Origin: Chloroflexota bacterium
Lineage (GTDB): Bacteria > Chloroflexota > Chloroflexia > Chloroflexales > Roseiflexaceae
Direction of reading: 5' to 3'
Length of the DNA stretch: 36,588 nt
Assembly (NCBI GenBank): GCA_018969485.1
Contig: JAGWYG010000026.1
Coordinates: 1-36,588, forward strand
The translations under genes and the position numbers were made by a program. The notes beneath the pieces are model-generated. The model saw only the letters and a list, made by a program, of their open reading frames with translations. It did no database searches and was not told the origin of the DNA. This document shows, piece after piece, positions 19,440 through 25,016 of this stretch. Position 1 is the first letter of the stretch, and every line of letters begins with the position of its first letter.

Positions 19440-20621
19440 TCAGCCGAGCAGTTCGCCGAGCACGTCGGCGACGTGCCACAGATCGTCTTCGGCGATCACC
19501 AGCGGCGGCAGCAGCCGCAGCACGTTCGGCCCGGCGGGCAGCGCCAGCACCCCCCGTTCCAGCAGCGCCACCAGCACCGGCTGCACGCGCTCCTTGAGCT
19601 CGAGGCCGATCAGCAGGCCACGCCCGCGCACCTCGCGCACCCGCGGCAGCGCCTGCGCGCGCAGCCGCGCCAGCAGCGCCGCGCCCAGCCGCGCCGCACG
19701 CTCGGGCAGGCCAGCGGTGACCAGCGCCTGCAGCGTCGCGCGCGCCGCCGCGCACACCACCGGCCCGCCGCCGAAGGTCGTTCCGTGGCTCGCCGGCGCC
19801 ATCGTGCCGAAGCGCTCGTGCACTGCGATCGCCCCCATCGGCAGGCCGCCGGCGATCGACTTGGCCAGCAGCAGCATGTCGGGCGTGACGCCGGCCGCCG
19901 CCGACGCAAACAGCGCACCGGTGCGGCCAAATCCGGTCTGCACCTCATCCACGATCAGCAGCGCGCCACGGCGCCGGCAGCAGTCGGCGACCGCCGCCAG
20001 GTAGTCGTCGGCTGGCACGCGCACGCCACCCTCGCCCTGGATCGGCTCGACGATCACCGCCGCCGTCCCGTCATCCACCGCCGCCTCCAGCGCCGCGATC
20101 CGGTCGTAGGGCACATGCACGACGCCGGGCACCAGCGGCATGAACGGCTCGCGGTACTTCGGCTCGAACGTCGCCGACAGCGCGCCGAAGGTTCGGCCAT
20201 GAAAGCCACGCACCGTCGCCACCACGCCGCGGCGCCCGGTGATCGCCCGGGCAAACTTCAGCGCGCCCTCGACGGTCTCGGCGCCCGAGTTGCAGAAGAA
20301 CACCCGGCGCAGGCCGGCCGGCAACTGCGCCACCAGCTCGGCCGCATACGCGGCGCGCTGGTCGTTGGCGAAGATCTCCGGGCAACTGATCAGCCTGGCC
20401 GCCTGGCCGGCGATCGCTGCCGCCACCGCCGGATGGGCATGGCCCAGGTTCGCGGCACCCTGGCCGGCGACACAATCGATGTATTCCCGGCCGTCGGCGT
20501 CCCACACGCGGGCGCCGGCACCACGCACCAGCGCCAGCGGGCGCTTGGGATAGACGCCGCTGGTGTGCAGCGCCTCGGCGGCGACCCAGCCGGCGCTGGT
20601 CGTCGGCTCTGGTGTGGTCAT
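19440..20621 (-). CDS. lysJ: LysW-aminoadipate semialdehyde / LysW-glutamate semialdehyde aminotransferase LysJ
   Basis: 393-aa class III PLP aminotransferase (ArgD/LysJ family). It transfers an amino group to the semialdehyde still attached to LysW, giving LysW-lysine or LysW-ornithine. Seen: FFCNSGAETVEGALKFARA (phosphate cup), FHGRTFGALS, IVDEVQTGFGRTG, and the PLP lysine in LLLAKSIAGGLPMGA (Lys254). GAGGAG, overlapping the lysZ stop, sits 6 bp before the ATG at 20621; a GTG at 20624 is the alternative. Last gene of the LysW operon. The carboxypeptidase LysK that releases the product is not in this window. Confidence 0.92.
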   Translation of the reverse strand: MTTPEPTTSAGWVAAEALHTSGVYPKRPLALVRGAGARVWDADGREYIDCVAGQGAANLGHAHPAVAAAIAGQAARLISCPEIFANDQRAAYAAELVAQLPAGLRRVFFCNSGAETVEGALKFARAITGRRGVVATVRGFHGRTFGALSATFEPKYREPFMPLVPGVVHVPYDRIAALEAAVDDGTAAVIVEPIQGEGGVRVPADDYLAAVADCCRRRGALLIVDEVQTGFGRTGALFASAAAGVTPDMLLLAKSIAGGLPMGAIAVHERFGTMAPASHGTTFGGGPVVCAAARATLQALVTAGLPERAARLGAALLARLRAQALPRVREVRGRGLLIGLELKERVQPVLVALLERGVLALPAGPNVLRLLPPLVIAEDDLWHVADVLGELLG

Positions 20622-20631
20622 CACGTGCTCC

Positions 20632-21435
20632 TCATTCGATCACCGTGCCGCTGCCGGCCAGCGCGGCGGCGAGCGGCGCATCACGCCGGGCATCGGCCAG
20701 CACGACCCGCCGCACGCCACCTGCCAGTGCCTCGCCGGCGCCGAGCAGCTTCTTCTTCATGCGGCCCTGCGCCAGCGGCAGCCAGCGCTCCAGCGCGTCA
20801 CGCGGAATGCGCGGGACCAGGCTGCTCTCGTCGGCGAGGGTGCGCAGCAGCCCGGGCACGTTCGTCAGCAGCACCAGCGCGTCGGCCGCCAGCGCGACGG
20901 CGATCGCCCCCGCCGCCCGATCGCCATCGACGTTCAGCCCTTCGCCCGCATGGCTCACGGCCAGCGGCGCCACCACCGGCACGTAGCCGGCCGCCAGCAG
21001 CGACTGCAGCAGCGCCGCATTCACCTGCTCGATCGTCCCGGTCCAGTCGTCGCGCAGCACCCGCGGCTTGCCGTCCTCGACCACGCGGATGGTGGCCTTG
21101 CGCTGCCCTGCCAGCAGCCGGCCATCGATGCCGCTGAGGCCGAGCGCGTTGACGCCGGCCCGCTGCAGCGCTTCGACCAGCGTCGTGTTCACCAGCCCGG
21201 CCGCCGCCATCATGAAGATCTCCAGCGTCTGGCGGTCGGTGTAGCGGCTGGTGAACCCGGTGGGCGACTGGACGAACCGCGGCGGATGGCCGAGGCGCTC
21301 GCCGAGCCGGTTGGCCTGGTGCGAGGTGCCGTGGACCAGCACCAGCCGCTCGCCCTGCGCGATCAGGGCGGCGACGTCGGCGACGAGTGCGGCGTGGCCG
21401 ATCCCTGCGCCACCGCCAAGCTTGACGACAATCAT
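20632..21435 (-). CDS. lysZ: LysW-aminoadipate/LysW-glutamate kinase LysZ
   Basis: 267-aa amino-acid kinase (ArgB/LysZ family). It phosphorylates the carboxylate of the LysW-bound aminoadipate or glutamate. Seen: MIVVKLGGGAGIG at the N-terminus (ATP-binding Lys and Gly loop), VHGTSHQANRL, the substrate loop FTSRYTDRQTLEIF, LSGIDGRLL, LNVDGDRAAGAIAVAL and GRMKKKLLGA near the C-terminus. GGAGAG lies about 8 bp before the ATG at 21435. It follows the two ChrA-type genes with a 139-bp gap containing a strong hairpin, unlike the overlapping junctions elsewhere in the operon. Confidence 0.93.
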   Translation of the reverse strand: MIVVKLGGGAGIGHAALVADVAALIAQGERLVLVHGTSHQANRLGERLGHPPRFVQSPTGFTSRYTDRQTLEIFMMAAAGLVNTTLVEALQRAGVNALGLSGIDGRLLAGQRKATIRVVEDGKPRVLRDDWTGTIEQVNAALLQSLLAAGYVPVVAPLAVSHAGEGLNVDGDRAAGAIAVALAADALVLLTNVPGLLRTLADESSLVPRIPRDALERWLPLAQGRMKKKLLGAGEALAGGVRRVVLADARRDAPLAAALAGSGTVIE

Positions 21436-21518
21436 CGTTGCTCTCCATCCTTCGATTGATGGGCTTCCTGCACGCCGGAACGCCGGGCGTCCGCCGGCCC
21501 CGCCAGCGCCATCCGCGC

Positions 21519-21560
21519 GATCGGGGCCGCGACGGCGGCGGGTGTGGCGCGGCCCCGATC
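21519..21560. other. 13-bp perfect hairpin between chrA and lysZ
   Basis: GATCGGGGCCGCG (21519-21531) is exactly complementary to CGCGGCCCCGATC (21548-21560), with a 16-nt loop. It lies between the second chrA stop (21575) and lysZ (21435). There is no U-tract on the minus strand, so it is more likely an RNA processing, stability or partial-termination element than a classical terminator. Confidence 0.6.
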
Positions 21561-21574
21561 CCCGCACCGTGCCG

Positions 21575-22099
21575 TCAGCCGATGGGCAGCATGCGCACCA
21601 GGATGCCGAGCGCTGCCGCCAGCGCGAGGTGCACGATCACCGGGATGCGCCGTGTGCGCGCCACCAGCACGCTCGCGCCGACGATCAGCAGCGTCGGCAG
21701 CGACCACCCGGCGGCCTGCACCATTGTGACCAGCACCGGGATGAATGCCCCCGCCCCGGCCAGCATCATGCCGCGCACGAAGCCCTGCATCGCGGGATGC
21801 GCCTCGGCGCGCCGCATCAGGCGATCGATCAGCAGCACCAGCAGCGGCGGCAGCAGGATGGCCAGCAGCGCGAGCAGCCCACCACGCCATCCGTCGATCA
21901 GAAAGCCGAAGCTGACGACCCACAGCCCGCTCGGGCCGGGGCTCACCTGGCCGATCGCCAGCGCCTCGGCGAAGTCGCGCTCGTCGGCCACGCCGCGCGC
22001 GGTGAGCTCCTGGTGGAGCAGCGGCAGGTTGCCGGTGCCGCCGGTGCTGAACAGCGAGGCCCGCAGGAACAGCCAGAACAGCCCCCATGGTTCGATCAT
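21575..22099 (-). CDS. chrA: Chromate-transporter-family protein, C-terminal-type half
   Basis: 174-aa short ChrA (SCHR) protein with about six membrane helices. Family block: LFWLFLRASLFSTGGTGNLPLLHQEL, FAEALAIGQVSPGPSGLWVV, then FLIDGWRGGLLALLAILLPP. It overlaps the preceding ChrA-type gene by ATGA, so the two halves are probably made together and work as a heterodimer. Characterised ChrA proteins export chromate; many homologues have no proven substrate. Its place inside a LysW operon is unusual. Confidence 0.85.
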   Translation of the reverse strand: MIEPWGLFWLFLRASLFSTGGTGNLPLLHQELTARGVADERDFAEALAIGQVSPGPSGLWVVSFGFLIDGWRGGLLALLAILLPPLLVLLIDRLMRRAEAHPAMQGFVRGMMLAGAGAFIPVLVTMVQAAGWSLPTLLIVGASVLVARTRRIPVIVHLALAAALGILVRMLPIG

Positions 22100-22743
22100 C
22101 GCTGCCGCCCCCGCCGCGCGCGCCACCACTCGGCCAGGCCCAGCACGGCGCCGCCGCCGAGCAGCACGGCCAGCACCGGCACGCGGAACACGCCCACCAG
22201 CACGGCGCTGCCGGCCAGCACCAGCAGCGCCAGCACCAGCGCCGCACCGCCATGCGCCCGGCTCGCGCCCACCGCCGGCCGCGCCATCTGCCAGGTCATC
22301 ACCAGCCCCAGCCCGATCGTCGCCGGGATAATCCCCGCCAGTGCGGCGTGAACCAGCGCCGAATCGCGGATGCTGGCGTACATCAGCGTCAGCGCGATGG
22401 TGATCAGCCCGCTCGGCGCCGCCAGGCCGAGCAGCGCCACGCACGCGCCGGGCAGGCCGCGCACGCGCCAGCCGAGCAGCACCGTCAGGCACAGCAGATT
22501 GATGCCCGGCGCAACCTGGCTGACCGCCCAGTCGCGGGCGAACGCGGCCTCGGAGAGCCAGCGCTGCTCGTCGACGGCGCAGCGCCGGATGAGCGCCATG
22601 GTCGCGCTGCCGCCACCGAACGACTGTAGCCCCAGCCCGAGCCAGGTCGCCGCGAGGCGCCACAGGCCCGGCCGCGCCGGCGGGCTGCCGCTCGCGGGTG
22701 GCGCCGCGCCGTCCGGGCCACCCGCCGCGTCCTCCGCCGCCAT
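22096..22743 (-). CDS. chrA: Chromate-transporter-family protein, N-terminal-type half
   Basis: 215 aa. A short polar N-terminus leads into the ChrA motif: GLGLQSFGGGSATMALIRR, then WLSEAAFARDWAVSQVAPG and a helix pair with PGACVALLGLAAPSGLI. About five to six membrane segments. It starts with ATG at 22743, overlapping the lysY stop by one base, or with GTG at 22746 (GTGA overlap). Coupled to lysY upstream and to the second half downstream. Substrate unknown; chromate is the family default. Confidence 0.85.
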   Translation of the reverse strand: MAAEDAAGGPDGAAPPASGSPPARPGLWRLAATWLGLGLQSFGGGSATMALIRRCAVDEQRWLSEAAFARDWAVSQVAPGINLLCLTVLLGWRVRGLPGACVALLGLAAPSGLITIALTLMYASIRDSALVHAALAGIIPATIGLGLVMTWQMARPAVGASRAHGGAALVLALLVLAGSAVLVGVFRVPVLAVLLGGGAVLGLAEWWRARRGRQR

Positions 22744-23780
22744 CACACCGGATGCAGGCCGGCGAAGCCCAGCCCGGTGCGCTCATCGAGGCCCAGCATC
22801 AGATTGAGGCACTGCACCGCGCTGCCCGCCGCGCCCTTCATCAGGTTGTCGATCGCGCAGATGCTCACGACCCGCCCGCTCGCCTCGTCGAGCGCGAAGC
22901 CCACATCCGCATAGTTCGTGCCGCCCAGAATCTTCGGCTCGGGCAGCCGGTATGCGCCCTGGCGCTCGCGCACGATCCGCACGAACGGCTCGTCCTGGTA
23001 GCATGCACGAAATGCGCGCCACAGCTCCTTCTCGCCCGCCGGCCGCGCCAGGAATGCGTGGGCCGTCGCCAGCGCCCCGCGCACCAGCTCGACGCTGGTG
23101 ATCGAGAGGTGTACCCGCCCGAGGCCGGTGACCTGCATGATCTCGGCGGTATGGCGATGCCCCACCGGGGCGTACGAGCGCACCACCCCGCTGCGCTCGG
23201 GGTGATGCGACGCCTCGTTCGCCTGCGCGCCACCCTCGGACGAGCCCACCTTGACCTCGATGATGACATCGCGCTGCTGGTCGATCAATCCGGCACGCAC
23301 CAGCGGCAGCAGCGCCAGGTTGCTGGCCGTGGCGTTGCATCCGACGCCGCTCACATACGCGGCATCGCGCAGCGCGGCGCGGCGCACCTCGGGCAGGCCA
23401 TACACGAAGCGCCCGAGCCAGTGCGGCGCCGGATGCGGCTCGCCATACCAGCGTTCGTACTGGGCGGCATCCGTCAGCCGGAAATCCGCCGAGCAGTCGA
23501 GGACGCGCGGCGCCAGCGCGGCGAGCGCATCGATCTGCCGTGCCGCCGCGCCATGCGGCAGCGCCACGAGCAGCACATCGCACGGCTGCAACTGTGCCGC
23601 CGGCACATACGCCAGCGCCGTGCGGCCGCGCAGGTTCGGGTGCGTCGTCGTCACCGGCCGGCCGGCGAGCCGCTCCGACGTCACCTGCGCCACCGCGACC
23701 GCCGGATGGTCGAGCAGCAGCCGTAGCAGTTCGCCGCCGACATAGCCGCTGCCGCCGACGATGCTGACCCGCACGCTCAT
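22743..23780 (-). CDS. lysY: LysW-aminoadipyl/glutamyl phosphate reductase LysY
   Basis: 345-aa ArgC/LysY-family NADPH-dependent reductase. It reduces the LysW-bound acyl phosphate to the semialdehyde. Seen: Rossmann [41 protein letters not shown] and the catalytic Cys148 in [18 protein letters not shown]. The form GCNAT rather than GCYPT is the LysY-like variant. The C-terminal Asn/Lys block [15 protein letters not shown] is intact. The ATG at 23780 overlaps the lysX stop by 4 bp. Confidence 0.93.
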
Positions 23781-24637
23781 GCCTGCCCCCGCGCCACCGC
23801 CAGCGTGTGGTCGACGATCCGCGCCGGGATATTCACGCCGGTCGGCGCGATGCTGTTGCGAAACTCCATCGTGTAGTTGACTTCGTTCACCAGCACACGC
23901 CCGTCGGCCGTCTCGAGCAGGTCGATCGCCACCACGCCACCGCCCACCGCATGCGCCGCGGCGACGCAGATCTGTGCCAGCCCGGGCGTCAGCGGGCAGA
24001 CGCTCGCCTGGCCGCCGCGGGCGGTGTTGGTGATCCAGTGGGCGCTCGTGCGATAGATCGCGCCGATGCAGTCGTCGCCGATGACGAACGCGCGGATGTC
24101 GCGCCCGCCCGGCTTGGCGATGTACTCCTGGATGTAGAAGATCGAGTGGTGATACGAGCCCAGGACCTCCTTGTGCTCCAGCATCGCCTCGGCCGCCTCG
24201 CGGTCGTTGACCTTGGCGATCAGCCGGCCCCACGAGCCCACCGCCGGTTTGAGCACCGCCGGATAGCCGAGCTGCTCGATCGCCTGCAGCGCCGACGCCG
24301 GCGAGAACGCCATGCGCGTGCGGGGGGTCGGCACGCCCGCCTTGATCAGCTCCTGCGTCGTCTTGAACTTGTCACCACAGACATCGGCGACCGCGAAGGT
24401 GTTCACCGTCGGCACGCCGGCGTCGTTCAGGACCCGCAGCGCGTACAGCGCCCGCGAATGATGGATCGAGCGCTCCAGCACCACGTCGAAGGCATAGCGG
24501 CCGTCGTTCAGGTCGAAGATCACCGCATCGTCGTCGAGCTTTGTGATGGCGATGCCGCGCCGCTCGAACTCGGCGAAGATCAGCTTCTCCTCGACCCGGA
24601 TGCGCGAACACAGCACGCCGACGCGCATCTCACTCAC
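23777..24637 (-). CDS. lysX: LysW-aminoadipate/glutamate ligase LysX
   Basis: 286-aa ATP-grasp ligase (RimK-like). It joins the amino group of aminoadipate or glutamate to the C-terminal Glu of LysW. Seen: N-terminal [36 protein letters not shown]-grasp Lys in [27 protein letters not shown], and the metal-binding C-terminus [16 protein letters not shown] at 24637 overlaps the lysW stop by 8 bp; an ATG three codons in (24628) is the alternative. Whether it prefers aminoadipate (LysX) or glutamate (ArgX) cannot be settled by eye. Confidence 0.94.
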
Positions 24638-24797
24638 CCCAGTCCTCGCCGACTTCCGGCGCCAGGGCGAGCGCCGGCGGGTCCAGCCCGATCACCTCGA
24701 GCTCGGCGGCACAGTCGGTGCAGATGACGATCTCATGCTCGACGACATCGGCGGCCAGAGCGATCATCGCATCGCATTCGGGACACGTGGCGGTCAT
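24630..24797 (-). CDS. lysW: Amino-group carrier protein LysW
   Basis: 55-aa acidic zinc-finger carrier. The two Cys pairs are CPEC (5-8) and CTDC (26-29). It ends in the diagnostic tail GEDWGE, whose terminal Glu55 receives the amino-acid substrate. The protein protects the amino group and delivers intermediates through LysX, LysZ, LysY and LysJ. The ribosome site AGGAGG (24802-24807) lies 4-5 bp before the ATG at 24797. It is the first structural gene, immediately downstream of a leader peptide and intrinsic terminator. Confidence 0.95.
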
Positions 24798-24817: not shown

Positions 24818-24860
24818 AGAAAACGAACAACCCGCGTCACCGCATGCCGGGTGAGGCGGG
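24818..24860 (-). terminator. Intrinsic terminator (attenuator) in the lysW leader
   Basis: On the minus strand CCCGC-C-TCACC (24860-24850) pairs with GGTGA-C-GCGGG (24841-24831). This gives two 5-bp blocks with one C-C mismatch and an 8-nt loop, followed directly by TTGTTCGTTTTC. The U-rich tail makes it the most classical intrinsic terminator in the window. It lies between the leader peptide and lysW, so it would cut off the operon it precedes. Confidence 0.82.
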
Positions 24861-24909
24861 CTGGCTGGATCGACGGTCGCGAGACGCGCGCTCCTCAGCC
24901 AGGCCTGCC
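24855..24909 (-). promoter_or_regulatory. Predicted antiterminator competing with the lysW attenuator
   Basis: The RNA copy of GGCAGGCCTGGCTG (24909-24896, the last leader codons) can pair with CAGCCAGCCCGCC (24867-24855). This makes 7 bp (24896-24902 with 24861-24867), then 2 bp (24904-24905 with 24859-24860) and 3 bp (24907-24909 with 24855-24857), separated by one bulge and one mismatch. Bases 24855-24860 also form the 5' arm of the terminator, so the two structures exclude each other. A ribosome that reaches the leader stop would cover the upstream arm. Confidence 0.65.
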
Positions 24910-24957
24910 GGCCGGCTTGAGGCTGCGCTTGCTCCACTTGGCGCGGGTGCGGGCCAT
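24895..24957 (-). CDS. Arg/Lys-rich leader peptide of the lysW operon
   Basis: A 20-codon ORF reading MARTRAKWSKRSLKPAGRPG. Seven residues are basic: Arg at 3, 5, 11 and 18, Lys at 7, 10 and 14. It has its own AGGAG (24967-24971) 9 bp before the ATG and begins about 24 nt after the predicted transcription start. It precedes a terminator and an overlapping antiterminator. Stalling at Arg/Lys codons when charged tRNA is short would leave the last codons free to form the antiterminator. Leader-peptide attenuation of Thermus lysine genes is, as I recall, described, so there is precedent. A stand-alone basic micro-protein is the alternative. Confidence 0.75.
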   Translation of the reverse strand: MARTRAKWSKRSLKPAGRPG

Positions 24958-24987
24958 GGTCGTGCTCTCCTGGTCGTCGACGCCGCG

Positions 24988-25016
24988 ACTATACCATCCG
25001 TCGCGGCGAGTGTCAA
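24988..25016 (-). promoter_or_regulatory. Strong sigma-70-type promoter of the lysW operon
   Basis: Minus strand: -35 TTGACA (25011-25016, perfect), 17-bp spacer, -10 TATAGT (24988-24993, five of six). The start should be near 24981. This is the best promoter in the window and gives a leader of about 185 nt before lysW, unusually long for this compact region. Confidence 0.88.

Follow-up and report, generated by a model that had tools for sequence, protein, structure and literature searches.

A putative lysine-responsive leader-peptide attenuator before lysW and its relatives in Chloroflexota

The 36,588-nucleotide stretch of Chloroflexota DNA analysed here (the window) appears to carry, ahead of lysW, a lysine-responsive, ribosome-mediated transcription attenuator that belongs to a set of Chloroflexota elements with a common RNA scaffold, a reading to which we assign a probability of about 0.85. 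An earlier note on this DNA had proposed a leader-peptide attenuator from the letters of the locus, and comparison with related elements lends strong support to that proposal through three competing helices, the promoter, and the leader ORF. Leader-peptide attenuation with lysine as the signal is known from Thermus thermophilus, where it acts on the lysine cluster of the aminoadipate pathway.

The locus ahead of lysW

All of the parts named in the earlier note were found on the minus strand between window positions 25016 and 24818, ahead of lysW-lysX-lysY-...-lysZ-lysJ:

24988-25016, minus strand: promoter; -35 TTGACA at 25016-25011, 17-nt spacer, -10 TATAGT at 24993-24988, 11/12 match
24967-24971, minus strand: Shine-Dalgarno AGGAG of the leader ORF, read from the sequence
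24895-24957, minus strand: leader ORF MARTRAKWSKRSLKPAGRPG-stop, 20 codons, 3 Lys and 4 Arg
24939-24937, 24930-24928 and 24918-24916, minus strand: Lys control codons of the window leader, from sequence and alignment
24910-24930, minus strand: segment 1, control-codon arm of the protector 1:2 helix (24930-24922 and 24917-24910), from covariation
24886-24904, minus strand: segment 2, leader end, stop codon and post-stop arm (24904-24898 and 24893-24886), pairing with segment 1 or 3
24846-24867, minus strand: segment 3, downstream arms of the antiterminator (conserved register 24852-24846 and 24866-24860; register of the earlier note 24867-24855)
24831-24860, minus strand: predicted intrinsic terminator stem-loop, 24860-24850 with 24841-24831, 11-bp stem, about -19.7 kcal/mol
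24818-24830, minus strand: interrupted U-tract TTGTTCGTTTTCT directly after the terminator stem, from sequence and alignment
24630-24797, minus strand: lysW, start at 24797 (NCBIfam TIGR01206, 5.7e-19)
23777-24628, minus strand: lysX (TIGR02144, 9.2e-97)
22743-23775, minus strand: lysY, argC-type reductase (TIGR01850, 3.5e-106, residues 154-495 of ORF 22743-24233)
20632-21567, minus strand: lysZ, [LysW]-aminoadipate kinase (NF010659, 2e-124)
19440-20624, minus strand: lysJ-type aminotransferase (NF042418, 4.3e-134, under the curated cut-off of that model)

The promoter, described beforehand as near-consensus, is the sole match of such quality in the 19.6 kb scanned, where 0.9 would be expected by chance. 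The leader ORF has its own AGGAG and the seven Arg or Lys codons claimed for it, and the leaders of relatives are likewise about 20 codons long. The terminator and U-tract reported before lysW are present as well, although a promoter and terminator scan of the window missed the terminator. Single-sequence folding of the whole window leader gave an energy that is not unusual (z -1.1), and the case therefore had to rest on comparison. Between lysY and lysZ the operon also contains a chromate-transporter-like ORF (21575-22786, minus strand; PF02417, second half).

Distribution of the lysine element

Within the order the element immediately precedes lysW in two genomes only, the window genome (G000) and G003; of 78 places searched upstream of lysW, 2 had it. 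Taken alone, that search suggested a lineage-specific oddity, an idea that was dropped when the element was found at the head of a longer operon. The G003 copy has its promoter in common with the window, its leader, VNHLCAKQNKRSKKPAIGSG, is likewise 20 codons long, and its terminator is the better of the two. A search with a short, degenerate KRSxKPA pattern returned mostly chance matches, but it led to G053, in which the element heads hcs-hacA-hacB-HICDH-lysW. With a covariance model built from these three copies (R1), about 60 of the 82 genomes of the order Chloroflexales were found to have the element at the head of the aminoadipate-pathway lysine operon, where the gene that follows is hcs, hacA or lysW. 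Homologous loci that keep lysW without the short ORF or the stems had been named as the observation that would speak against an attenuator, and most relatives do lack the element directly before lysW; yet this apparent absence arises because lysW lies inside a longer operon, with the element at its head, typically 3-5 kb upstream.

Among the lysine copies the leader has the consensus ..KQxKRxKKP[DA]xRSG followed by the stop codon, which may be TAG, TAA or TGA and is kept at one place among the aligned copies. Of 63 related elements, 60 are preceded by a promoter with at least 9 of 12 matches, as against 2.4 expected from shuffles. A search of the 82 order genomes with a later covariance model (R3, see below) found no element in several of them, including six of genus g11 and both of g25. 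In genus g16 (Chloroflexus-type), lysW itself is duplicated or triplicated in tandem (G034:C141:6462-7006; also G043, G044, G045, G046, G047, G048 and G049).

Three competing helices

Alignment A4 comprises 50 copies aligned by MAFFT without reference to structure. Related genomes are counted several times in it, and their elements are not independent observations; with that qualification, the terminator helix (3:4) is paired in 92.1% of cells and has 43 both-side changes against 17.8+/-2.9 in shuffles, with a covariation score of 0.220 against 0.117, the antiterminator (2:3) is paired in 90.2% of cells with 30 both-side changes against 10.2+/-3.5, and the protector (1:2) in 87.0% with 47 against 26.2+/-5. 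For each of the three helices, neither the covariation score nor the percentage paired was equalled in any of 500 shuffles. When the partners were slid by one to three columns only 20-47% of cells were paired, a comparison tilted towards the unslid register because the helices were named after the alignment had been inspected, so that more trust can be placed in the both-side changes. Covariation in homologous elements had been proposed as a check on the attenuator, and all helices proved to be conserved with compensatory changes.

The antiterminator and the terminator share alignment columns 103 and 111-113 and are hence mutually exclusive, and the protector helix overlaps the control codons. 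When the 3' arm of the terminator was left out, RNAfold gave a fold close to the 12-bp antiterminator first described, in which 24855-24867 pairs with the last leader codons; an antiterminator is thus supported, but its conserved register overlaps the original one without being the same, joining 24904-24898 to 24852-24846 and adding a helix between post-stop and pre-terminator bases. The parts found are those of a trp-type attenuator, namely a leader ORF with its own ribosome-binding site and control codons, an intrinsic terminator, an exclusive antiterminator and a protector helix. At the level of sequence, the comparison shows a promoter, a leader ORF, Lys codons and the three competing helices in a position before lysine genes.

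Proposed mechanism and standing of the window copy

From this arrangement we infer termination, ribosome stalling and a response to lysine. Segment 1, which holds the Lys codons together with AAGCCGGAC or AAGCCGGCC, would pair with segment 2, made up of GGUCUGGU-stop and the post-stop bases; segment 2 could alternatively pair with segment 3, the 5' arm and loop of the terminator (ACCAGAC), and segment 3 with segment 4 would form the terminator. Were charged tRNA-Lys scarce, the ribosome would stall on the Lys codons and cover segment 1, the 2:3 helix would form, and RNA polymerase would read on into the lysine genes. Were lysine plentiful, the ribosome would reach the stop codon within segment 2 and 3:4 would terminate transcription, and without translation 1:2 would form, so that 3:4 would again terminate. 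Folding by RNAfold differs between copies. In the Roseiflexus-type copies L124 and L141 the whole antiterminator is kept even with the terminator sequence present, whereas in the window copy and L136 the terminator wins once it is full, in the window copy even with segment 1 hidden. For these two copies timing must matter, and the window copy would need co-transcriptional (kinetic) folding.

Two full copies occur in the window genome. One is the copy in the window, on contig C68 before lysW; the other, on C216, precedes hacA-hacB-HICDH, an hcs-like gene and a LysE-family gene. The window copy is among the more diverged and may be weaker or partly decayed. It is conceivable, if rather unlikely, that its promoter works while regulation has become weak or lost, with the copy before hacA acting as the regulator; in the window copy one Lys codon is replaced by Leu, the U-tract is interrupted, the terminator dominates the fold in silico, and the score with a model of lysine copies (R2) is 65.9 bits against 93.9 for the C216 copy. 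Nevertheless, the ORF, stop position, terminator stem and promoter are all intact, changes in segments 2 and 3 are partly compensated (U-A to C-G at A4 columns 58-116), and a canonical copy is kept at the same place in G003, all of which argues against decay. Elsewhere in this genome, at G000:C209:14598-14723 (L045 1501-1626; L188), a 114-bp stretch identical to the promoter and beginning of the leader in the window (about 25025-24911) ends the contig and adjoins a divergent mnmA; this reflects either recent duplication or the assembly itself. The LysE-family gene at the end of the hacA operon lies at about 1028-1700 of L230, on the minus strand.

The amino acid sensed

The Arg and Lys codons of the leader had been said to fit either lysine or arginine as the product of the operon. 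Lys is found at codons 7, 10, 13 and 14 in 44, 49, 44 and 43 of the 50 copies, and codon 13 lies outside all counted pairs and alternates between AAG (28) and AAA (16), a sign that the amino acid is under selection. Arg is variable, occurring at codon 11 in 36 of 50 copies and at another position in 28 of 50. The Lys half of the original statement thus holds and the Arg half does not: the conserved control codon is that for lysine rather than arginine, and lysine is likely the sensed amino acid. A genuine attenuator that senses arginine, or lysine and arginine together, is improbable; the four Arg codons of the window leader outnumber its Lys codons and codon 11 is Arg in most copies, but several lysine-operon leaders (L138, L141, L166, L175, L176) have no Arg whatever while Lys is kept at four positions, and copies before arginine genes have 3-9 Arg and mostly no Lys.

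It is very unlikely that the short ORF instead specifies a small peptide with a function of its own in trans, the stem-loops being incidental: the C-terminal motif KKPxxRSG is strongly conserved in the leaders and there is precedent for leader peptides that act in trans, such as peTrpL (PMC7298713), but the conserved P, D/A, S and G residues fall on pairing segments, unpaired non-Lys positions mostly vary (with the exception of Gln at codon 8, conserved in 46 of 50 copies and not accounted for by the counted pairs), the sensor residues switch to Arg along with the downstream genes, and the two leaders searched against Pfam gave no match.

Related elements with other control codons

Model R2, although built from lysine copies only, also gives weaker matches before other genes: argG, argJ and argC, where the leaders are Arg-rich, and LysE-family genes, where they are Gln-rich. 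All of these have a common scaffold, CCGGAC in segment 1, UCUGGN-stop in segment 2 and CCAGAC in segment 3 within the terminator. Lysine-gene leaders (n=62) average 3.7 Lys and 1.9 Arg and arginine-gene leaders (n=34) 0.3 Lys and 5.6 Arg, a comparison whose p-values ignore relatedness. For argG, argJ, argC, gltX, hcs and LysE the gene assignment was verified in representatives, and the remaining ones were made by tblastn or protein reading; among the tblastn labels, 'hcs2' and in some cases 'lysW' denote hcs or a different lysine gene, owing to a nearest-start rule and overlapping matches, which leaves the Lys/Arg grouping unaffected.

A scan of 84,980 species genomes for the exact pattern CCGGAC N5 GTCTGGNTAG N27-56 CCAGAC returned 28 stretches, 27 from Chloroflexota and one titled Phycisphaerales, where a rough chance estimate is about 3. 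Both helices are kept in an alignment of 40 mixed elements (A5), in which the pair at columns 37-88, unfixed by the search pattern, is AU in 10, UA in 8, UG in 7, CG in 3 and otherwise in 12. A further alignment (A6), most of whose members are Arg-rich, has an antiterminator that is 82% paired; both-side changes in it number 18 against 8.8. Segment 2 is predicted to bind its own downstream region more strongly than those of other elements (mean -12.7 versus -11.3 kcal/mol; 0 of 200 swaps). Model R3, built from A5, matches 67 of the 82 genomes of the order. In a sample of 400 from the phylum it matches 49, of which 17, several of them weak, lie outside the order.

These data suggest that one ancestral attenuator RNA probably spread within Chloroflexota and was re-tuned by swapping its sensor codons, to Lys before hcs, hacA or lysW, to Arg before argG, argJ or argC, and to Gln before LysE-family genes. 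LysE-family genes have Gln-rich leaders in most cases (L207, L209, L213, L221, L222, L314, L329) and Lys-rich ones in genus g9 (L165, L167, L172, L175). Glutamine is apparently the amino acid sensed before the former, and a transporter raised on glutamine shortage would not be an ordinary exporter.

Relation to known systems

The Chloroflexota element resembles the Thermus thermophilus attenuator as putative leader-peptide attenuation before an aminoadipate-pathway lysine cluster, with lysine as the signal, but occurs in a different phylum, and we know of no common scaffold with Arg and Gln versions described for Thermus. Classical amino-acid attenuators are usually operon-specific, whereas here one sequence-conserved scaffold serves several operons with its control codons changed. 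With the trp, his, leu, thr and ilv attenuators of Proteobacteria and Actinobacteria (for example PMC1262725 and PMC10272879), the element has in common a short ORF with control codons, exclusive 1:2, 2:3 and 3:4 helices and a stop codon in segment 2. T-box leaders (Rfam RF00230) likewise serve several amino acids with one RNA scaffold through a changed specifier, but there the RNA itself reads uncharged tRNA, and the element has no T-box or other credible Rfam match. The lysine riboswitch (L box) also controls lysine genes by attenuation, although in the Chloroflexota element it is a translated ORF that is conserved; no Rfam family matched above threshold in the window, and none did so credibly in the element when the threshold was relaxed.

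The mechanism would be classical ribosome-mediated attenuation, the unusual feature being that a single RNA switch, apparently homologous throughout, recurs with different sensor codons. A literature search covering mainly open-access papers found no Chloroflexota leader-peptide attenuator, and the element is provisionally undescribed in Rfam and the literature searched. It suggests how a large and poorly studied phylum may control lysine and arginine synthesis, and it offers a set of natural variants with a nearly constant RNA switch and varying sensor codons, so that the link between codon identity and regulation is directly testable. Such variants could help to predict the amino acid to which unassigned operons answer, such as those of LysE-family transporters. 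If there was indeed a single ancestral switch, this would be a modular regulatory system, T-box-like in its logic but read by the ribosome.

Weaker and unusual matches

Among the model matches, L204 was rejected because by eye it looks like a T-box before proS, as were L225, L227 and several weak matches without a leader. Weak scaffold matches precede gltX, the glutamyl-tRNA synthetase gene, with Glu/Gln in their short ORFs (L206, L212), and scaffold-like matches with Pro-containing short ORFs lie about 0.9 kb upstream of prolyl-tRNA synthetase-like genes (L322, L327). In the metagenome-assembled genome titled Phycisphaerales, a Lys leader on the scaffold stands before a dapB-like gene (L246), by transfer or on a misbinned contig. 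Two near-identical Arg-leader elements lie 1.8 kb apart in L309 (G047:C607:5760 and 7531), the second before argJ, and in some argC elements (L240, L241) the layout is altered, with a stop codon closing the Arg-rich leader immediately ahead of CCGGAC.
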